Part shown: in pieces, positions 16,529-33,214 of the stretch
Numbering within the stretch: the stretch's first letter is position 1
Layout of the letters: every line of letters begins with the position of its first letter
IMG/VR virus record: IMGVR_UViG_3300009184_000013
Location: 1 to 37,154 of that record
DNA from: a virus
Length of the DNA: 37,154 bases
Strand: one strand, 5' to 3'
Position numbers and translations under genes: made by a program
Notes under the pieces: generated by a model
What the model was told of the DNA's origin: nothing
Databases searched by the model: none
Seen by the model: only the letters and a program-made list of their open reading frames with translations

Positions 16529-18664
16529 TCAATAAACTGGAACATTTGTTGTGACTGTGCCGCCAAACTGCAAAATAGGAATGTAACCGCCGCTAATCAA
16601 AACTTGAATAACAACGGTTGCATAATTTAAAACGGGCAAATAAGTTGCAGGGGTTGCGCCCGTTGCGCCAGTTGGGCCTGTAGGCCCTGCTACGGTACTG
16701 CCCGCACCAGTAGGTCCTGTAGGTCCTGTAGCACCCGTAGAACCCGTAGGCCCGACCACGCCTTGAACACCTTGAATTCCCTGTATGCCCTGCGGTCCTG
16801 TCGGGCCTACATTTCCTTGAATTCCCTGTGTGCCTGTTGGTCCTGTCGGGCCTTGAACGCCTTGTGCGCCCGTATTGCCCGTAGGTCCAGTTGGCCCGAC
16901 ATTACCTTGTGCGCCCGTATCGCCTTGCGGTCCTGTAGGGCCTTGGATACCCTGTACGCCTTGGATGCCCTGCGGTCCTGTTGGCCCGACCACGCCTTGC
17001 GTTCCTTGTGCACCAGTAGGTCCTGTTGCACCGACATTGCCTTGCGGTCCTGTAGGCCCTGCAACGGTTGAATCTGCCCCTGTCGGGCCTGTCACACCTT
17101 GGATGCCTTGTGCGCCCGTTGGCCCTGCTACGCCCTGAATACCTTGAATACCTTGGTCACCCTGTATGCCCTGTGGCCCTGTCGGTCCTACCACGCCCTG
17201 AACACCTTGGCTACCAGTTGGGCCTGTATTGCCCTGCGCCCCTGTAGGTCCAGTTGGTCCTACTGCACCTTGCGTTCCAGTTGGGCCTGTTGCGCCTTGC
17301 GCCCCCGTAGGCCCTGCTACGGTGCTTGCCGCGCCCGTTGGACCTGTTGGGCCTGTTGCCCCCACTACGCCAATAGATTGAATAACGGCAATTAAATTGT
17401 GATTGTTTGCAAAACCAGTTGTTCCCGTGCCGCTAGATGTTGACAAAGTAACGGGGCAAGTAATTGAACTATTTGGAACAACTACGGAATCTGAAGATAA
17501 AACCCATTTTTGATAATTGTTTGAATTATTTGCATCTTGCAAAATGACGCTATCGCCCGTTTTCAAAAATCCCAAGAACAAATCAACATCAATGCCGTTA
17601 CTTGTTAAGTGGCTAAAGGTAAGAGTAGTTGCTGAAGTTTGTGTAGCGTTATTCCAATAGACATGACCCGATGTAGGTGTACCTGAAAATTGATTTGTGT
17701 CGGCTTGATATTGGTAATAAGAAGATGATTGACCATCAGCACCCGTTGCACCCGTAGGGCCAGTTGGCCCTGCTACTGTAGATGCCGCGCCCGTTGCGCC
17801 TGTAGGCCCTGTTGCACCCGCAACGCCCGTAGGTCCTGTTAAACCTTGTGCGCCCGTTGGTCCTGTTGCGCCTACCGCACCTTGCGAACCAGTTGGCCCT
17901 GCAATGCCTTGCAAACCTTGTTCGCCCTGAATTCCCTGAATACCTTGTGCGCCAGTTGGACCTACCGCACCTTGTATGCCCTGCGCCCCTGTCGGGCCTG
18001 TAGGCCCTGCAACCGTGCTATCTGCACCCGTAGCACCCGTTGGACCTTGTGCGCCATTGCTTCCCGTAGGACCTACAACGCCTTGCGTACCCGTTGGGCC
18101 TGTTGGACCTTGTGCGCCAACATTGCCCTGCAAACCCTGCGGGCCAGTTGGCCCTGCATTACCCTGTACGCCTTGCGCCCCTGTTGGACCTACCGCACCA
18201 GTTGGGCCTGTACTGCCATTAGCACCATTAGCCCCCGTTGGTCCTGTTGGGCCATCATTACCATTAGCACCTTGCGCCCCTGTTGGGCCTTGTATGCCCT
18301 GTATGCCTTGAACGCCTTGGATACCCTGAATACCTTGTGGGCCTGTCGGCCCGACATTGCCTTGTGCGCCTTGGCTTCCCGTTGGTCCTGTAGCACCCGT
18401 AGGGCCTTGAACCGTAGATGGCGCACCTGTTGCACCTGTTGGTCCTGTCGCACCAGTAGCCCCCGTTGGGCCTTGCACCGTGCTTGGCGCACCAGTAGCA
18501 CCAGTAGGGCCAGTTGCGCCCGTAGGCCCTTGGTTGCCTTGTGGCCCTGTTGGGCCTGTAGCCCCGCTAATCGCCCTATCAATCCTTAAATCAATGCGAG
18601 GTTGCGGCGTTACTTGTAGATTTACATTGTTGCCATCTTGAACGGAAACTTTGATGTTGCTCAT
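16529..18664 (-). CDS. Collagen-like tail fibre protein
   Basis: The 711-residue protein has two long blocks of Gly-X-Y triplets (about 34-310 and 432-670), mainly [12 protein letters not shown] and GVQ, which form a collagen triple helix in phage fibres. A non-collagen domain of about 120 residues lies between them ([16 protein letters not shown]...[15 protein letters not shown]). A short hydrophobic domain ends the protein. The triplets are broken seven times by a four-residue STVQ/STVA insert. No proline hydroxylation is needed in bacteria. DNA is repetitive here, so assembly errors in repeat number are possible. Confidence 0.85.
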
Positions 18665-23941: not shown

Positions 23942-24534
23942 GTTATGTACTCACGGAAAACAAACGGCGCATCCCATTGCACAAACGCGCCATCCGTCAT
24001 TGGGTTAAGTGTATAGGTTGGGCAAGATTCTGCAACCACCGTAAATGTGCAAGCATTGCCAATGCTAACCGTTGTGCCTGATGCGGGCGTACCAATCAAC
24101 GGGCGATTGATGCCTACTGATGAACCCGCGCTATCGGCGGTTATCTTGTAGGTGTATCCGTTAATCATAATGAAATCGCCCGCTTTAAATGTTCCGTTAG
24201 AAGTTAAAGCAAGTGTTTGCGTATTAGCCGCGGGCGCACCGTTCAAGGTTGCCGCGGTAGCCGTGCCACGCATTTTATTAAACCAAGAAAGATTAGTAGT
24301 ATTAAAAGTAATTGTTTCGGGCAATTGCCTATCTTTGTTATCAATGGCTTGGATAATATCCCGAACTTGCGGATAGTAAAGATAGGCATGGGGTTGAATG
24401 GTAAACACCCAAGGCACGGCGGTTAGATATTGCGCTACGGTGATATAACCCGAACGCGCTACTTGTTGTCCAACCATACGGCGGTTGTTAACCGTCATTG
24501 ATTGTTGTATTTCAAAGATGGTTTGGAAACTCAT
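23938..24534 (-). CDS. Distal tail protein-like
   Basis: The 198-residue product follows the tape measure gene directly, the usual place of distal tail or tip proteins that begin the tail tube. It begins with a helical segment (FQTIFEIQQSMTVNNRRMVG) and continues with strands (VPWVFTIQPHAYLYY, TLALTSNGTFKAGDFIMING), a beta sandwich-like content. No catalytic motif. It is coupled at both ends to its neighbours. Assignment is from synteny with lambda-like tail operons. Confidence 0.55.
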   Translation of the reverse strand: MSFQTIFEIQQSMTVNNRRMVGQQVARSGYITVAQYLTAVPWVFTIQPHAYLYYPQVRDIIQAIDNKDRQLPETITFNTTNLSWFNKMRGTATAATLNGAPAANTQTLALTSNGTFKAGDFIMINGYTYKITADSAGSSVGINRPLIGTPASGTTVSIGNACTFTVVAESCPTYTLNPMTDGAFVQWDAPFVFREYIT

Positions 24535-26501
24535 GCCCGACCCCTATTTACCGCCAACGATTTATTGGCGTACTGATTTGCCGCCCAAATCGCATTAGAA
24601 CTACCGTATAGGCGTTCTTCAAACGATTTGGTATCAATGGCGTTAATGTAGTTGTTTGTAACGCTTGTAGAGCCGCCCATGCCGCCTAACGCATGGTTTG
24701 GAATGATTGTCCCTGCGGTGCGGGGTACAAAGATTTCAGGGCCGCGTTCACCAACAATTGCGGGTTGTCCTACGGCGGGGCTACCACCATCAGCATACCC
24801 TGCAAATCCCATTACCGCGGCGGGTTGGTACGGGTTTGATTTCATGCCAAACATAGACCCAAACAAAGAACTTAAAAATCCCGATGCCGCGGCTTTCATT
24901 TGCATCGCCAACATATCTTGAATAATGCTACGCGCCAAATCTTTAAAACCAATTTTTCCAGTTTTAACAAAACGGTCAATTGCCGATTCCATATTTCCTA
25001 AAACTGATTCAAATGCTTTTGCGCCAACTTCTAATTCTGTTGGCATATCACGCAAGAATTTTTGCATTGATTTGCCAAAGCCTTGTTCAAATGAACCTTG
25101 CCGTTGCGCTAATGCCGCGTTGTATTGCGCTTGAACATATTTATTGCTTGCTTCTGTAAGTTGATTTTGTTGTTGAATTAAATAATATTTGGCTTCAATT
25201 TCTAAATCATTGTTGTGATTTATTTCTTTAATTGCGTCTAACCTTTGTTGGTCAAGCAAATAAAGTTCTTTATTTAATTGTATTTCTTCGGGTCGCAAAT
25301 CTTTTGTTTGTTGTTCAATTTGAAATAAACCGTTTTTAATTCTCAAGGCTTTTTCTTCATTTTCAATTCTTTTAATTGAATCTGTAAACGCGCTATTTTC
25401 TTTACCCGCAACATCTAATAAAATTTTATCTAAACGCTGAAGTTCGTGAAAATACTTTTGTAATGCGCGTAGGCGTTCGCGTTCTGCGCGTTCCGCTTCA
25501 GGGTCGCGGGCTTTAGTTACTTTTCTTCCCGCTACTGATGGCGAACCTTTTGTTTCGGGTGCGGTAGGATTAAAAATTTCATTAGTAAATGTATCTAATT
25601 TAGCCCTGTCGCGTTCTGCGCGTTCTGTTGCTTCTTTATAGATTCTTCCAATTTCGGCAAAATCACCGCGAAACAAAGCCATTGCCGCTTTACCAATTGC
25701 GGAAAAATCTTCTATTAGTGTTTTAATAATAAAAGAAACATGACCCGCCGCCAATGCAACGGTTTCAAAAGCGGCTTTAAAAATTACGCCAAATGTGTTG
25801 CCTTCTTTATTTAGGCTTTTTAAATAATCCATTGTGGTTACAAGTTTTGGCCCTAACTCCGTAGCCAAAGTAACCATGTAATCACGCGTTCTTTGCCCCA
25901 ATATGTCGTACACATCTGCGGCTTGTTGAATTGCTTGTTCTTGTTCTTTTGTAACCGTATTGGCTTTTGCCATATCTTCGGCAAGCGATACAAAATCTAC
26001 ACCTTTGGCGGCTTTGCCAAAAACATCCATTGCTTTAGCATTGCGCGTTACTGAATCTTCCATTGAACCAAGATTTTTAACAACCTTGTTTAACAATTCT
26101 TCTTCGGAAAGTTTGCCCAAATCTTGTAGGCTTACGCCCAACATAGTTGCAGTTTTTTGCGCTTGTAAAGAACCGCCCGCGGCTTCATCAATAAACTTTG
26201 TAAACGATGATAAAAGTTTTCCTGAATCACCCGCTTTGCCGCCCGCATTGGCTAAAGCATTAGAAAGTTTAAGAACCGTTCCAATAGCAACATCATTGGC
26301 TTTGGCTACATCGGCTAAATCATCGGCGTATTGAAGTGCGGCGGCACTAGCGGCAACCAAGGCGGTTGCGCCTATCTTTCCAAACCTTTCTGCGGTTTGG
26401 CTAAATTGTTCAAGTTTCTTACCCGCGTTTTCAATACCTTTATTGAATTCTGCGGTATCAAGCCCTAGCACTACGCCAAGGCGGGCAATCATATTAGCCA
26501 T
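24531..26501 (-). CDS. Tape measure protein
   Basis: The 656-residue protein sets tail length and is ejected with the DNA. It shows the family features: a start of the type IARLGVVLGLDTAEFNKGI...AGKKLEQF, long helical coiled coils from about 60 to 480, an Ala-rich hydrophobic part near 540-570 (LAMQMKAAASGFLSSLFGSMFG), and the usual Gly-rich end with YADGGSPAVGQPAIVGERGPEIFVP. Using the common rule of about 0.15 nm per residue, the tail would be near 100 nm. It overlaps the chaperone gene by eight bases. Confidence 0.93.
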   Translation of the reverse strand: MANMIARLGVVLGLDTAEFNKGIENAGKKLEQFSQTAERFGKIGATALVAASAAALQYADDLADVAKANDVAIGTVLKLSNALANAGGKAGDSGKLLSSFTKFIDEAAGGSLQAQKTATMLGVSLQDLGKLSEEELLNKVVKNLGSMEDSVTRNAKAMDVFGKAAKGVDFVSLAEDMAKANTVTKEQEQAIQQAADVYDILGQRTRDYMVTLATELGPKLVTTMDYLKSLNKEGNTFGVIFKAAFETVALAAGHVSFIIKTLIEDFSAIGKAAMALFRGDFAEIGRIYKEATERAERDRAKLDTFTNEIFNPTAPETKGSPSVAGRKVTKARDPEAERAERERLRALQKYFHELQRLDKILLDVAGKENSAFTDSIKRIENEEKALRIKNGLFQIEQQTKDLRPEEIQLNKELYLLDQQRLDAIKEINHNNDLEIEAKYYLIQQQNQLTEASNKYVQAQYNAALAQRQGSFEQGFGKSMQKFLRDMPTELEVGAKAFESVLGNMESAIDRFVKTGKIGFKDLARSIIQDMLAMQMKAAASGFLSSLFGSMFGMKSNPYQPAAVMGFAGYADGGSPAVGQPAIVGERGPEIFVPRTAGTIIPNHALGGMGGSTSVTNNYINAIDTKSFEERLYGSSNAIWAANQYANKSLAVNRGRA

Positions 26502-26847
26502 CTTTTACCCCAAACAATGTTTTATCAAATCCTTGCGCCTGTTGCATAAACGCTAAAAGGCTATTATTTACTGCCGCTTTTTTATGTTCATCACTTAAAG
26601 GCGGGTAGATGTAATCATACGCACTACCCAAAATGTTGGCTAGTTTATATGGGGGCGAATTTGCCGTTCTCATGTAATTAAACACCCCGTTAGTCAGGGT
26701 CGCCAATTGCGTAAGAACGCCGTAATTCCCAATCATTCCATCGGCATACATTGTTTGAATGTTTGCCAAAGTTACATCATCTAATTCTGCTATTGTTTCT
26801 AGGGTATGCCCGTTGAAAATCATTGCGGCTAGGCATTGACTTTTCAA
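26494..26847 (-). CDS. Tail assembly chaperone, frameshifted second frame (lambda gpT-like)
   Basis: The 117-residue part is read in a frame -1 relative to the upstream chaperone gene. Its best independent start would be a TTG at 26847 with no good ribosome site. The frame is open upstream through the slippery site at 26859-26865, so it is most likely made only as the C-terminal half of a fusion, as in lambda G-GT. The domain includes TLETIAELDDVTLANIQTMYADG and a helical, hydrophobic middle. The fused product would be 281 residues and bind the tape measure protein. Confidence 0.75.
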   Translation of the reverse strand: MKSQCLAAMIFNGHTLETIAELDDVTLANIQTMYADGMIGNYGVLTQLATLTNGVFNYMRTANSPPYKLANILGSAYDYIYPPLSDEHKKAAVNNSLLAFMQQAQGFDKTLFGVKDG

Positions 26848-26855
26848 CGAGCCTA

Positions 26856-27338
26856 TTAGTTTCCCCGCGCTTCCCTGTAGGTTGGGCTAATTACTTCACC
26901 AATCTTTTCTACAATTTGCATCTGCACGGAAATAGGGAATTCTTCTTCAATATCCGCGTAGGTTAAATCATCAAGGGTTACGCCTTCCATTTCAGGAACA
27001 AGTAACTTAAAAAATTCAGTAATGCGGGCTTCGGTAATGGCTTTATTTTTAGCCGCTTCACGCATAGAACGCCCATCAACCAAAATGTCGTTATCCGTAA
27101 ATTTAAATTCTTCGGTTTGATTGTTTTCAAATTGTCTTAATGGTGCGGTAATTTCTTGGTATATTTTCTCTATTATTTCTTCGGCGGGGTCAGAAACCTT
27201 TTTATAGATTTCATCCGATTCAGCAACCAAAGGGATGCGTACTTTAAAAGTATGCCCACCCAATTCAAATGAACGAATTAAAAGGTTTTTTCTATTTGTT
27301 TGGTATTTATCGCCAAACGCTGAACTAAATTTTGTCAT
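26856..27338 (-). CDS. Tail assembly chaperone, lambda gpG-like
   Basis: The 160-residue protein lies upstream of the tape measure gene, where the first of the two tail chaperones is expected. It is acidic and helical, with FKVRIPLVAESDEIYKKV and LLVPEMEGVTLDDLTYADIEEEFP, and ends in YREARGN at the frameshift site. Normal termination gives the short form; a -1 slip at the last codon joins it to the next frame. The ratio of the two forms controls tail assembly in lambda. Confidence 0.8.
   Translation of the reverse strand: MTKFSSAFGDKYQTNRKNLLIRSFELGGHTFKVRIPLVAESDEIYKKVSDPAEEIIEKIYQEITAPLRQFENNQTEEFKFTDNDILVDGRSMREAAKNKAITEARITEFFKLLVPEMEGVTLDDLTYADIEEEFPISVQMQIVEKIGEVISPTYREARGN
26859..26865 (-). 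promoter_or_regulatory. -1 ribosomal frameshift site GGGAAAC
   Basis: On the minus strand the heptamer reads G GGA AAC in the frame of the upstream gene, and TAA follows immediately. It fits the X-XXY-YYZ pattern of slippery sites (lambda uses GGGAAAG at the same place). A slip of -1 continues as CTA ATA GGC TCG TTG into the open frame that ends at 26494. Confidence 0.85.
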
Positions 27339-27883
27339 TTATTTTTCATCCTGTATTGATTTATTCGCCTACCTAAAATTTCCCCTAGCCGCTTGGCGGT
27401 TTGTTGGCTTTGGGATTCCATTGCAGGGCGTAGGTATGATTTTGCACCATTTCTAGCCGTACCGAATTCTTGTGCTATTGCGCGGGCATCACCTTGTACG
27501 CCCATAAATTTATCAGCATTGGCAACGCCCATCTTGGCTAATTTGCGGCGGGCGGCTAACAAGCCTTTTCCCTCACTCATTGCTTTTAACTTTTTACCCG
27601 ATGCGGTAGTTACTGCCGCTATCACGGTATCATTATCAGTAATGTATTTAGAACGCCTATCGCGCTTGGTTGGTCGCCGTGCTTCCACTTGCAAAGAAAG
27701 GCGCAAGCCGCCAGTATCCATTGGGGCGTTTGACATTGCTTGGGATAAAACGGGTTGCATTGCTTCCCGTGCGGCGGGTACAAGAATTTTGCTTTGCGCT
27801 TTCTTGTCGCCAATTTCCGCGGCTAATTCTTCAAATGCGGCGTACACATCTTTCAAACCTTCAACTTTGAAAGTAACGCCCAT
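27335..27883 (-). CDS. HK97 gp10-like neck/tail completion protein
   Basis: The 182-residue protein has the family start (VTFKVEGLKDVYAAFEELA), a central NAPMDTGGLRLSL motif typical of gp10-type proteins, and the end pattern IAQEFGTARNGAKSYLRPAM. Such proteins help join the tail to the head or finish the neck. In HK97-like operons this gene usually precedes the tail tube gene; here it follows both tube genes. It is coupled to the chaperone gene by an ATGA overlap. Confidence 0.82.
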   Translation of the reverse strand: MGVTFKVEGLKDVYAAFEELAAEIGDKKAQSKILVPAAREAMQPVLSQAMSNAPMDTGGLRLSLQVEARRPTKRDRRSKYITDNDTVIAAVTTASGKKLKAMSEGKGLLAARRKLAKMGVANADKFMGVQGDARAIAQEFGTARNGAKSYLRPAMESQSQQTAKRLGEILGRRINQYRMKNK

Positions 27884-28114: not shown

Positions 28115-28288
28115 TTATTTATTGTATTTACTTAGAACTTTTAAACATACCGCTTCTACAGAATCCGCATCAGCGGCGGCAATGGCATCTTCTAGTTCAT
28201 CGGCATCTACTACCATGCCTTGTGCAACCGCATCAAGTGATTGGTAGGTAGTGCTAAGAACTTCTACGGCTTCATCTACGGTCATCAT
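28115..28288 (-). CDS. Acidic 57-residue protein
   Basis: An ATG at 28286-28288 overlaps the stop of the tail tube gene (ATGA) and opens a frame ending at TAA at 28115-28117, two bases before the next gene. The product is acidic and helical (MMTVDEAVEVLSTTYQSL, ADELEDAIAAADADSVEAVC) with a single Cys and a basic end (KVLSKYNK). It fills what would be the only gap in this part of the operon. Function is unknown. Confidence 0.65.
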   Translation of the reverse strand: MMTVDEAVEVLSTTYQSLDAVAQGMVVDADELEDAIAAADADSVEAVCLKVLSKYNK

Positions 28289-28806
28289 GTGTTATTAGAC
28301 CAACCGTATTGGTTGCCCCTCGGATGAATTGTAAAGTTGCATTTTGCTTCTGCGCTTGGGCTTGAATCAATTGTGAATTGAGAAACGCGACCATTGAACG
28401 CATACGCAACCGTATTAGCACCGTCAACCGCGGCAACCACAAAAGTGCGGTCAACCGTACCGTTGTAGGCATCAGAACGGATTTGCAATAACGCGGTGTC
28501 GCTTGGATTCCAAGCCGCGGTAATGCTTAACGATGTAGGCGCAGATTGCGTAGGAATCTTATCGCTTTGGCGTGAACCCGCAACGCCAAAAGATGCAACC
28601 GCATCATCCTGACCAAAAGCGGGTACGGCTTCCACGGGCAACAAAACACCCGCGCCGCCAGTACCGTTAGCCGCCGTGCCTACGATGGTTGTAACTTGCC
28701 CTGTCCATACGGAAAGGTTTGCCGTTGTAAGTGGCGTAGGCGTTGCCGCGCTTTGCATATACAACGATGCACTAAAACCCGCTAAAACTTTATTTGGTAA
28801 AGCCAT
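28285..28806 (-). CDS. Major tail protein, second copy
   Basis: The 173-residue protein is a tail tube subunit paralogous to the product of 28816-29310. Both start with MALPNK(V/I) and share AFGQDDAVASFGVAG, SDKIPTQSAPTSLS and AEAKCNFTIHPRGN almost exactly. They differ in the loop around residues 20-55, where this copy has an extra TAANGTGGAG insert. Tube proteins stack as hexameric rings. Many synonymous differences between the copies show that the pair is not a recent assembly duplicate. It may be the main subunit or a minor variant. It has an AAAGGAATATC ribosome site. Confidence 0.8.
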   Translation of the reverse strand: MALPNKVLAGFSASLYMQSAATPTPLTTANLSVWTGQVTTIVGTAANGTGGAGVLLPVEAVPAFGQDDAVASFGVAGSRQSDKIPTQSAPTSLSITAAWNPSDTALLQIRSDAYNGTVDRTFVVAAVDGANTVAYAFNGRVSQFTIDSSPSAEAKCNFTIHPRGNQYGWSNNT

Positions 28807-28815
28807 GATATTCCT

Positions 28816-29310
28816 TTAGGCGTTGTTAGACCAACCGTAGAGATTTCCACGGGGGTGAATGGTGAAATTGCATTTGGCTTCAGCACTAGGGCTTGAATCA
28901 ATCGTAAACTGGCTTACGCGGGCGTTAAAGGCGTAATAAACAATGTTTGACCCTTCGGTAGCACTAACTACAAAAGTACGGTCAATCAAGCCGCTATACG
29001 CATCGCCGCGCATCAACAAAAGCATTGTGTCGCTAGGATTCCATGCGGCGGTAACGCTAAGTGATGTTGGTGCGGATTGCGTTGGGATTTTGTCAGATTG
29101 ACGCGAACCCGCTACACCGAAACTAGCAACTGCATCATCTTGACCAAATGCGGGTACTGCTTCTACTGGAATCAGATTACCCGAAATTGCAATACCCGAA
29201 ACATTGCCAAGGGTTGAAAGTTGGGCAAGTGTTAGTGCAGTAGGTGTTGCGCCTGATTGGGCATACAACGCCGCGCTAAAACCCGCCATTATTTTGTTTG
29301 GTAATGCCAT
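28816..29310 (-). CDS. Major tail protein, first copy
   Basis: The 164-residue tube protein precedes its paralogue by nine bases. It has the same core, with a shorter loop near residues 30-45 (STLGNVSGIAISGN). A strong ribosome site (GAAGGAAC) lies in the 33-base gap upstream, the longest gap in this part of the operon. Both copies look intact, with conserved glycines and aromatic residues, so both are probably built into virions or used in a ratio. Tube identity is inferred from size, content and position between the neck and tape measure genes. Confidence 0.75.
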   Translation of the reverse strand: MALPNKIMAGFSAALYAQSGATPTALTLAQLSTLGNVSGIAISGNLIPVEAVPAFGQDDAVASFGVAGSRQSDKIPTQSAPTSLSVTAAWNPSDTMLLLMRGDAYSGLIDRTFVVSATEGSNIVYYAFNARVSQFTIDSSPSAEAKCNFTIHPRGNLYGWSNNA

Positions 29311-30792: not shown

Positions 30793-31809
30793 TTAGGCGG
30801 CACTCATACGAACACCCGCGAACGGGTCGCGCACGGTGCTTACCATACGCTTTTCGGCGTACATCGTTACAAAACCCGCTTGTGTTTGTTCAAACATTTG
30901 GATGCTCATTTGTTCTGTATCGCCGATTGTCAAAAAACGATTCCAGTTTGCCAAGTAAATGGGGAAATCTGCGGAAAGGTATGCGTTAGGGATAACGGGC
31001 CAACCAAAAATATGACCAATCGCGCAACCATCTTTTTCGCCCAATTCCAAGAACAAAGGCAAACCCGCAGTATCTTTTAATTGACGCAATGTTTGAATCA
31101 TTGCAGGGCTAATGTGCCATGCAGTTGAATCTAGCGACCAATATTGCGGGGGCAACGCGTTAGCCATGTTTACAACCTTGTTGTAAGTTACCGCAACGCC
31201 GCCGTTACTAACCGTAGCGATAGTATGAATACCATTTGTGATAGCCGTGCCGCTAGTACCAAAAGCACTACTAGCCCCGCTAGTGTAACTATCCAAACCG
31301 CGCAAACCGCTAGTAGCACCAGTTGATGTAGTTGTGCTACCCGCTTGGTCATTGTTAAGCACCATTGATTGACCTTCAAGTTGTGCAAACTCAAGTGCCA
31401 AATCTTCAACAAGTGTTGCATCAAGTCCATTAACATCACTTAGCACCGCCGTTCTGATTGGCAATTGTGCAACCAATACGCGCACGGGTAATTGCCAAAT
31501 AGAAGTGTTCACATTAGGCGAACCGCTATCAGGCGTAAATGTGTAACCCCAAGGGTTTGTAGAATTTGCGGCGTTACCAGTTTTGGCAACGAATTGGGCA
31601 TCAGAGCCTTTAACCGCAATTTGACGTGAGCCTTGACGCAATGGGTTTGCTTGACGCAAAGCCGCAAATGCTTCATCAAAAACAACATTACCACCGACAC
31701 CCGAACCCGAACCAGTAATTGCGCTTGCTTCACGCAAATCGATGTTTACTTTGCCGCCTTCGGTGATGGCTTGTTTGATTCCGTTCAAGATTTTTTCGGT
31801 GATAGTCAT
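30793..31809 (-). CDS. HK97-fold major capsid protein paralogue without delta domain
   Basis: The 338-residue protein is a paralogue of the 448-residue capsid protein encoded just upstream, sharing about half of its residues by eye across the shell domain (AFAALRQANPLRQGSR / VFAALRLANPMRGLSR; SIWQLPVRVLVAQLPIRTA / SIWQLVLQDLNVQFPIRTA; GFVTMYAEKRMVSTVRDP / GFITFFGEKRLATSVRDP). It starts with only about 30 residues before the shell fold and lacks the long N-terminal scaffolding domain, as if already trimmed. A terminator lies between the two genes. It has a good ribosome site (CAGGAATTC). It may be a vertex or minor shell protein, as gp24 is for T4 gp23. Confidence 0.8.
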   Translation of the reverse strand: MTITEKILNGIKQAITEGGKVNIDLREASAITGSGSGVGGNVVFDEAFAALRQANPLRQGSRQIAVKGSDAQFVAKTGNAANSTNPWGYTFTPDSGSPNVNTSIWQLPVRVLVAQLPIRTAVLSDVNGLDATLVEDLALEFAQLEGQSMVLNNDQAGSTTTSTGATSGLRGLDSYTSGASSAFGTSGTAITNGIHTIATVSNGGVAVTYNKVVNMANALPPQYWSLDSTAWHISPAMIQTLRQLKDTAGLPLFLELGEKDGCAIGHIFGWPVIPNAYLSADFPIYLANWNRFLTIGDTEQMSIQMFEQTQAGFVTMYAEKRMVSTVRDPFAGVRMSAA

Positions 31810-31867: not shown

Positions 31868-33214
31868 TTAAGTAGCAGTACCAGTTGAACGATAACGAAT
31901 CAACGCGTTAGGGTCCCTAACTGATGTGGCTAATCTTTTTTCCCCGAAAAATGTTATAAATCCTGGGGCCGTCTGATCGTAGCGGCGCATAATCATATTC
32001 AATCTGTCAATGATTGTGTGACCGCGTGTGAAATCACCAAAGTACATTGGGTACAAACTTGTTGTAGCCGCAGAACCTGCCGTTGTTTGCGATGGTGTAT
32101 CGCAATACTTGTTTACGACAACATCAAAGCCCAACAATGAACCCACGATGCCTTCAACTGACAAACCTTCGTTACGGTTAAAGATAGGTGCGCCGTTGTT
32201 ATCCTTCAATGCACGAATCGCGTTCAACAAAATTGGGTTAATCATAAACTTTGTTGATGGTGTCCAATATTGTTGTGGCAACTGATAAATCGTATTGATT
32301 ACATCGTTGTAAGTAATATTGTTTGCGCCAACGGTGTTAGCGTTAGTGGTCAATTGGTCATAAGTAGCAAGGCTATGCAAACCGCTTGATGAACCAGTAC
32401 CGCTTGAACCAAATGCCGCCGTAGTGCAAGTACCACCCGCGTAAGTGCTATTAGCACCGCCGTAACTATCTAAACCACGCAAACCATTTGTGCCGCCGTA
32501 GGGGTTAGTTGCTGATTGTGCCGCTTGGTCGTTGTTTTGAACCATTGAAAGGGCTTCACTTTGTGAAAACTCCATCAACATATCGTCAACAACATTGGCT
32601 TCCAAACCATCAATGTCATCCAAAGCCGCGGTACGGATTGGGAATTGAACATTCAAGTCTTGCAGAACCAATTGCCAAATGCTTGTATCTTCAGTTGTAG
32701 TCGCGCCATTGTTTTGAATGGTGTAGCCCCATGCCGCACCCGCATTACCAGTTTTGACACGGAATTGATAAGAAGAACCATCGGTAGCAACGGTGCGTGA
32801 CAAACCGCGCATGGGGTTAGCCAAACGCAAAGCGGCAAACACGGGGTCATAAGCGGTACGACCACCTTGATTGTTACCTGAACCTGTCAATGCTGATGCC
32901 TCAAGCATATACGCATCGCGTTGGCTTTCGTCAGCAAAAATTTGCAGTTCTTTTTCTACGCGGGAATTGCTTTTGTAGAAAGAAGAAAGTTGTTCCTTAA
33001 CAGAACGGTTTACATCGCCGCGCACGGTTGTAGCGGGCTTGATGATTGCGGGTGCTTGAATTGATGCTACTTTGGCTTCCAAAGCAGAAATGGTTTCTTG
33101 CATTTCTAGTTTGATTGCTTCAACGGCGGCGGGAATTTTTGCTTCTACGGCGGCAATGCTTTCGCTTTGCTTGGCTTCGATAGCATCCAGTTTTTCAATG
33201 ATTGCTTGTGACAT
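31868..33214 (-). CDS. HK97-fold major capsid protein with N-terminal delta domain
   Basis: The 448-residue protein begins with a coiled-coil scaffold region (residues about 1-100: QAIIEKLDAIEAKQSESIAA, ISALEAKVASIQAPA) that the prohead protease, encoded next door, would remove during maturation. The shell domain follows (ASALTGSGNNQGGRTAYDP, FRVKTGNAGAAWGYTIQ with the E-loop, DDIDGLEANVVDDMLMEF, GFITFFGEKRLATSVRDPNAL). It builds the icosahedral head. It is three bases downstream of the protease gene and is likely the main shell subunit, since it lies before the terminator. Confidence 0.93.
   Translation of the reverse strand: MSQAIIEKLDAIEAKQSESIAAVEAKIPAAVEAIKLEMQETISALEAKVASIQAPAIIKPATTVRGDVNRSVKEQLSSFYKSNSRVEKELQIFADESQRDAYMLEASALTGSGNNQGGRTAYDPVFAALRLANPMRGLSRTVATDGSSYQFRVKTGNAGAAWGYTIQNNGATTTEDTSIWQLVLQDLNVQFPIRTAALDDIDGLEANVVDDMLMEFSQSEALSMVQNNDQAAQSATNPYGGTNGLRGLDSYGGANSTYAGGTCTTAAFGSSGTGSSSGLHSLATYDQLTTNANTVGANNITYNDVINTIYQLPQQYWTPSTKFMINPILLNAIRALKDNNGAPIFNRNEGLSVEGIVGSLLGFDVVVNKYCDTPSQTTAGSAATTSLYPMYFGDFTRGHTIIDRLNMIMRRYDQTAPGFITFFGEKRLATSVRDPNALIRYRSTGTAT

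Follow-up and report, generated by a model that had tools for sequence, protein, structure and literature searches.

Frameshifting that yields G and GT is textbook phage biology. In lambda, a -1 shift at G_GGA_AAG, where the stop codon lies 15 nt after the heptamer, gives gpG and gpGT of 140 and 279 residues, and the second gene, T, runs into the tape measure gene, H, with an overlap of 8 nt. In a 2016 review (PMC5009743), HCTV-1 and -2 are said to shift between g and t at G_GGA_AAC and A_AAA_AAC, E. coli dnaX is described as combining a slippery heptamer with a downstream stem-loop, and in some bacteria the dnaX stop codon is reported to lie directly after the shift site. The same text has the IS1222 transposase slipping on A_AAG (G_CGA_AAG), and names 5-9 nt as the most studied distance between slip site and stimulator. 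It further describes E. coli tRNA-Lys as able to slip singly and tRNA-Asn as capable of double slippage only. Since, according to that text, E. coli ribosomes shift far less readily on A_AAA_AAC than on A_AAA_AAG, an AAC second codon is not ideal in bacteria.

The window, by which we mean the whole analyzed stretch of 37,154 nt (IMG/VR virus record IMGVR_UViG_3300009184_000013), carries a pair of this kind on the minus strand. The predicted 0-frame tail assembly chaperone gene, G-like by its open reading frame, relatives, and predicted fold, spans 27338..26856, encodes 160 aa, and ends in ...GAA GCG CGG GGA AAC TAA, with the stop codon at 26858..26856. The -1 frame is without stops from just after TAG 26889..26887, upstream of the slip site, up to TAA 26496..26494. 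The T-like gene in this frame (26494..26859, minus strand) would contribute 121 residues after the slip, with base 26859 read twice. Its stop codon overlaps the ATG of the tape measure gene (24531..26501, minus strand, 656 aa; phrog_339, 8.5e-17; Tape_meas_lam_C, 1.7e-13) by 8 nt. An earlier note on this DNA had placed a -1 frameshift at GGGAAAC, described a -1 frame open down to 26494, and predicted products of 160 and 281 residues, as in lambda. The heptamer G GGA AAC does stand at 26865..26859 (minus strand), in register as X XXY YYZ and with zero bases before the stop, the frame is open as described, and translation (0 frame through AAC, then -1) reproduced both product sizes and the junction EARGN-LIGSLK. 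The comparison with lambda held as a similarity in size and failed as an equality.

The locus shares with lambda the -1 shift that we propose, a second gene that runs into the tape measure gene, an 8-nt overlap at that point, and a similar fusion length (281 versus 279 residues). It differs in a heptamer that ends in AAC instead of AAG, in a stop codon 0 nt rather than 15 nt after the heptamer, and in a covarying 12-bp hairpin. Lambda, although present in the phage collection, was not matched in protein searches with G or T. By the description in that review (PMC5009743), HCTV-1 and -2 have the same two heptamers in the same gene pair as the window's family, but their hosts differ. The dnaX gene has the heptamer and stem-loop in common with the window, but it is an unrelated gene with an AAG site and another role. 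On comparative evidence, the window is well supported as a new member of the lambda G/GT kind, and the basic mechanism is not new. The new point is the covarying hairpin 6 nt past the heptamer.

We next considered the identity of G and T. The pair sits between tail tube-like and tape measure genes, just upstream of the latter. Two tail-tube-like genes were found at 28285..28806 (phrog_158, 8.4e-07) and 28816..29310 (phrog_158, weakly, 0.013), the product of the second being 75% identical to that of the first; between them and G come two small genes, one of 75 aa and an HK97-gp10-like one of 182 aa. No tRNAs were found in the window. The G model (pLDDT 87.8) gave no match below E 0.66 in a Foldseek search of the PDB. 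When the 775 chains that Foldseek had ranked were re-aligned, a scope in which absent families are still possible, the best match was 2ob9, an HK97 tail assembly chaperone (Z 6.2, rmsd 4.1, 90 residues, 11% identity), although a Z below 8 can reflect coincidence or a common arrangement. We take 2ob9 to be HK97 gp13. The next matches were 5ir0 (Z 6.0) and 3fgx (Z 4.4), both titled as proteins of unknown function, and all others reached at most 2.9. Among the BFVD viral models, three unnamed phage proteins matched G at E of 0.001 or below, and proteins named as chaperones appeared from E 0.11. The T model was helical (pLDDT 78.7), with no Foldseek PDB match at an E below 3. Pfam and PHROGs did not name the window's own G and T, and phrog_344, 'tail assembly chaperone', matched 3 of 49 G relatives weakly (best E 0.0029). 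The label of tail chaperone in the earlier note is thus supported by the neighboring tape measure and tail-tube-like genes and by the best re-aligned match of the modeled fold, with weak family HMMs. Because the Z 6.2 match coincides with this position and with the frameshift, G is likely, though not proven, to be a tail assembly chaperone.

Relatives were then collected. A DNA search of 50,697 phage records gave no match, and a protein search of the same records returned one relative, Methylophilaceae phage P19250A, with 49% identity in each gene. In this isolated and cultured phage the pair is annotated as two separate hypothetical proteins, and its junction, GTCAAAG, is without a canonical heptamer. 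From IMG/VR we took the best 80 relatives each of 205, 130, 563, 403, 450, and at least 570 confirmed, and two MAG contigs likewise bear the G/T pair. Among the matches listed, 439 sequences were analyzed, 436 of which, the window included, had both genes (L150 and L151 were without G and L263 without T). As many loci are second views of one contig, we counted per distinct sequence or per change on a tree. The 125 distinct 73-nt junctions represent 433 sequences; L295 and L366, which are one contig, were left out of this set and of the set of 128 distinct sequences used for codons, L176 was likewise left out of the junction set, and L001, which shows the window in the opposite orientation, was excluded as well. 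In the first junction table, the rows of L001, L100, L150, and L151 were invalid.

Among the matches listed, 435 of the 436 sequences place T in the -1 frame with respect to G. In the lone exception, L176, the best matches to T and G are 1.9 kb apart, and this locus was dropped; its own G junction looks normal. A single gene divided by transcriptional slippage or by a sequencing or assembly error could be envisaged, as a one-base change would bring both frames into phase. However, the slip site has no runs beyond GGGG and AAA, and the split recurs across 180 distinct 200-nt cores among the matches listed, including the genome of an isolated phage. Such an origin, to which we give practically no credence, is already contradicted by the compared sequences.

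The hairpin begins after a 6-nt spacer, TAATAG (26853..26858, minus strand), which includes the stop codon of G. Its 5' arm, GCTCGTTGAAAA (26852..26841), pairs over 12 bp with the 3' arm, TTTTCAACGGGC (26819..26808), around a 21-nt loop (26820..26840) that includes ATG 26823..26821, all on the minus strand. The minimum free energy (MFE) fold has -22.2 kcal/mol (z -4.07), with additional pairs predicted within the loop. In 102 distinct rows, 97.9% of the 1,224 stem cells were paired, and pairing fell to 31-58% when the partner was shifted by 1-3 columns. Double-change stem cells numbered 89 against 26.2 in shuffles (0/500), and the covariation score of the stem was 0.257 against 0.149 (0/500). 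Two of the five covariation measures did not exceed shuffles, namely the pairs with any double change (4 versus 3.5; 234/500) and further pair types (9 versus 9.5; 492/500). In a structure-free scan of 13,519 column pairs, for which 305 sequences supplied 160 distinct stretches of 261 nt, the top three couplings were +11/+47, +14/+44, and +8/+50, all stem pairs, and a fourth stem pair, +17/+41, ranked eighth.

The same pairs were followed on a 124-sequence tree from which the tested columns had been left out. Double switches outnumbered single ones at +8/+50 (9 versus 0), +11/+47 (16 versus 2), and +14/+44 (16 versus 1), giving 41 paired and 3 single switches for the three strongest pairs together. 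The inner pair, +17/+41, was looser, with 5 double and 12 single switches, and was unpaired in 19 of the 125 distinct junctions. A further analysis of 168 sequences gave the same picture. In 125 of 126 distinct junctions, the MFE fold contained at least six of the eight outer pairs, and single stem pairs were broken in L014 and L197. In both arms, the covarying bases are the third bases of -1-frame codons (3/17, 4/16, and 5/15), and the hairpin is conserved through paired synonymous changes.

The window had no Rfam match at gathering thresholds. An H-type pseudoknot between the loop sequence ATGCCT and GGGCAT was rejected, since GGGC belongs to the stem and the loop is variable; weaker or tertiary contacts may still occur. 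Among the 25 strongest column pairs listed, there was no run of pseudoknot-like couplings between the loop and downstream sequence.

Covariation demonstrates pairing and not function, and the start of the tape measure gene overlaps the stop of T, so a real hairpin might have another role, for example, in mRNA processing or in control of the tape measure gene. By contrast, the distance from slip site to hairpin is 6 nt throughout the aligned set and also in L295, where the stop codon lies one codon later, and this spacing falls inside the 5-9 nt range most studied for stimulators (PMC5009743). We consider another role improbable, and it is likely that the hairpin stimulates slippage.

Next, the coding of T near the slip was analyzed. 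The residues at T codons 4, 5, 15, 16, and 17 (Ser, Leu, Phe, Asn, and Gly) and Gln8, in the loop, were fixed in all 128 distinct sequences. Codon 3 was less fixed (Gly in 99, Ser in 25, and Arg in 4). The U-G pair at +9/+49 was never C-G or U-A in the 125 distinct junctions, as a requirement for Ser4 and Gly17 would predict. These fixed residues show coding in the -1 frame within a few codons of the slip. The earlier note had seen no good start in the second frame, which is supported, although not absolutely, because the T frame does have start codons. T could then be made separately by re-initiation after the TAA, at TTG 26847 (codon 5) or at the loop ATG 26823 (codon 13), tuned by the hairpin; the P19250A T gene is annotated as separate, and codon 13 is ATG in 115 of the 128 sequences. 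However, codon 13 encodes Leu in the other 13 (one of them TTG), codon 5 is TTG in 44 and TTA in 84, and the invariant Ser4, Leu5, and Gln8 all precede the ATG. Moreover, the heptamer and the 6-nt spacing would then serve no evident purpose. The invariant residues before the ATG and the variation at codons 5 and 13 make a separate start unlikely as the main route to T, and we regard re-initiation as very improbable.

The stop codon of G adjoins the slip site directly in all 125 distinct junctions, which read AAA followed by C, G, or A before it. Codon 1 of the -1 frame was GTA, CTA, CTG, or ATA in 128 of 128 sequences while codon 2 varied, which suggests that the stop is being retained. The L295/L366 contig is the exception, and by it the adjacent stop is the rule yet not indispensable. 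The distance from slip site to stop averages 26 and 36 nt in two phage sets in the PRFect paper (PMC10885494). The stop may help slippage.

The heptamer itself varied among the 125 distinct junctions. GGGAAAC, which occurs three times in the window on the two strands together, was the most frequent (44), followed by GTCAAAG (28), GGAAAAG (13), CTCAAAG (12), TTCAAAG (9), GGGAAAG (5), TGCAAAG and CCAAAAG (3 each), and TTTAAAA and TTTAAAG (2 each), with AAAAAAC, GTCAAAA, AGAAAAG, and TCAAAAG found once each. Where the second codon was AAC (Asn), the first triplet was a homotriplet in 45 of 45 junctions, whereas with AAG or AAA (Lys) it was one in only 9 of 80. In the other 71 Lys-type junctions, the first codon was GAA or CAA in 18, where partial re-pairing is possible, and TCA or GCA in 53. 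On the tree, which includes 44 of the 45, the AAC sequences group as a single clade (split support 0.999) that arose by a single G to C change at the last base. The pattern is consequently one evolutionary contrast resting on that change. Inside the clade, L153 has replaced GGG by AAA and retained a heptamer as AAAAAAC. The conserved heptamer exceeds chance; GGA accounts for just 14% of the 1,185 Gly codons counted elsewhere in both genes of the AAC-type sequences.

The AAC/AAG pattern is what would be expected if two tRNAs slip at Asn sites and one tRNA at Lys sites, in line with the single slippage of tRNA-Lys and double slippage of tRNA-Asn in the review (PMC5009743). The N TCA AAG and T GCA AAG relatives, P19250A among them, resemble IS1222 in that only the Lys codon can re-pair. 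A second codon of this type, AAG or AAA, is present in 80 of the 125 distinct family junctions; in the window it is AAC, which sets the window apart from IS1222. A putative Shine-Dalgarno-like AGGGA lies 6 nt 5' of the heptamer (26872..26876, minus strand). AGGGA, AAGGA, or a similar motif was found at most 18 nt away in all 45 AAC junctions and in 30 of 81 others, in a set of 126 distinct junctions that counts the L295/L366 contig among the others. With only 30 of the 81 non-AAC junctions bearing it, an internal Shine-Dalgarno was rejected as a general feature and kept as suggestive.

The frame relation in 435 of 436 sequences, the heptamer, and the covarying hairpin at a usual spacer length together support the -1 frameshift put forward in the earlier note. 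We are highly confident, on this comparative basis, that a programmed -1 ribosomal frameshift yields G (160 aa) and GT (281 aa), as in lambda. We infer that shifting takes place at a rate at which most ribosomes would read GGA AAC and then terminate at TAA. Some would be held by the 12-bp hairpin 6 nt downstream, where both tRNAs would slip from GGA AAC to GGG AAA, after which the ribosome would read CTA ATA GGC (Leu-Ile-Gly). On the lambda model, G would be expected to attach to the tape measure protein, with T bringing in the tail-tube subunits.

The family may further form a natural series: the hairpin and, with one exception, the position of the stop would stay the same, and the slippage mechanism would change. 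Both tRNAs would slip in the AAC clade, and tRNA-Lys alone would slip on A_AAG in AAG relatives such as P19250A, possibly once the stop codon occupies the A site. In these relatives, the first codons are mostly TCA or GCA, which are unable to re-pair, or GAA or CAA, which are partly able. We put this series forward tentatively, with slightly less than even confidence.

Among the papers listed in the open-licence PMC literature, no title or start of an abstract described the hairpin or the frameshift of this family, which does not imply absence from print. Taken by itself, the window is ordinary; to the G/GT systems, the family adds a likely stimulatory hairpin in a tail chaperone gene, backed by dozens of paired synonymous changes. 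It also adds a slip site with the stop immediately behind it, compared with averages of 26 and 36 nt in PMC10885494, and a natural AAC/AAG contrast that matches the finding on tRNA-Lys and tRNA-Asn in PMC5009743. As 70S studies have used AAG-ending heptamers almost without exception, according to a 2023 review (PMC7618472), a natural phage AAC site would be a useful test case. If the proposed series is true, the tail chaperone gene of the AAG relatives would shift frame by stop-assisted slippage of one tRNA, and annotation by canonical heptamer would miss such one-tRNA sites. Of specialist interest are the covarying hairpin, the zero-distance stop, and the loose first slip codon at Lys-type sites, and the family offers a clear record of the evolution of a frameshift site.

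In the cultured relative Methylophilaceae phage P19250A, T (locus L002; KX815270.1, 10407..10715) was deposited as a separate gene, with its annotated start at T codon 13, and no frameshift annotation was found in the deposited record KX815270.1. The same pair of genes, with its junction and hairpin stem, was also observed in L438 and L439, MAG contigs that bear the labels Gammaproteobacteria and Crocinitomicaceae and are probably phage contigs binned with their hosts.

The genes described next all lie on the minus strand of the window. An HK97-gp10-like neck/tail completion gene (27335..27883) separates the tail tube genes from those for the tail chaperone, an arrangement that is not common. 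Two neighbouring tail-tube-like genes share 75% identity; the first (28285..28806) matched phrog_158 at 8.4e-07 and the second (28816..29310) at just 0.013. At this position P19250A apparently has one gene, judged from gene length and order. The pair in the window looks like a tandem duplication. Two adjoining genes (30793..31809 and 31868..33214) both matched the Phage_capsid family PF05065, which may point to a second capsid protein or to a role in decoration. Furthermore, a 711-aa protein (16529..18664) containing eight collagen-repeat stretches (PF01391) is probably a tail fibre.

The T stop codon and the ATG of the tape measure gene, which comes next after T, overlap by 8 nt (26494..26501, minus strand), and in lambda the T stop overlaps the start of the next gene in the same way. 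Because of this overlap, translation of the tape measure gene may be coupled to shifted ribosomes.
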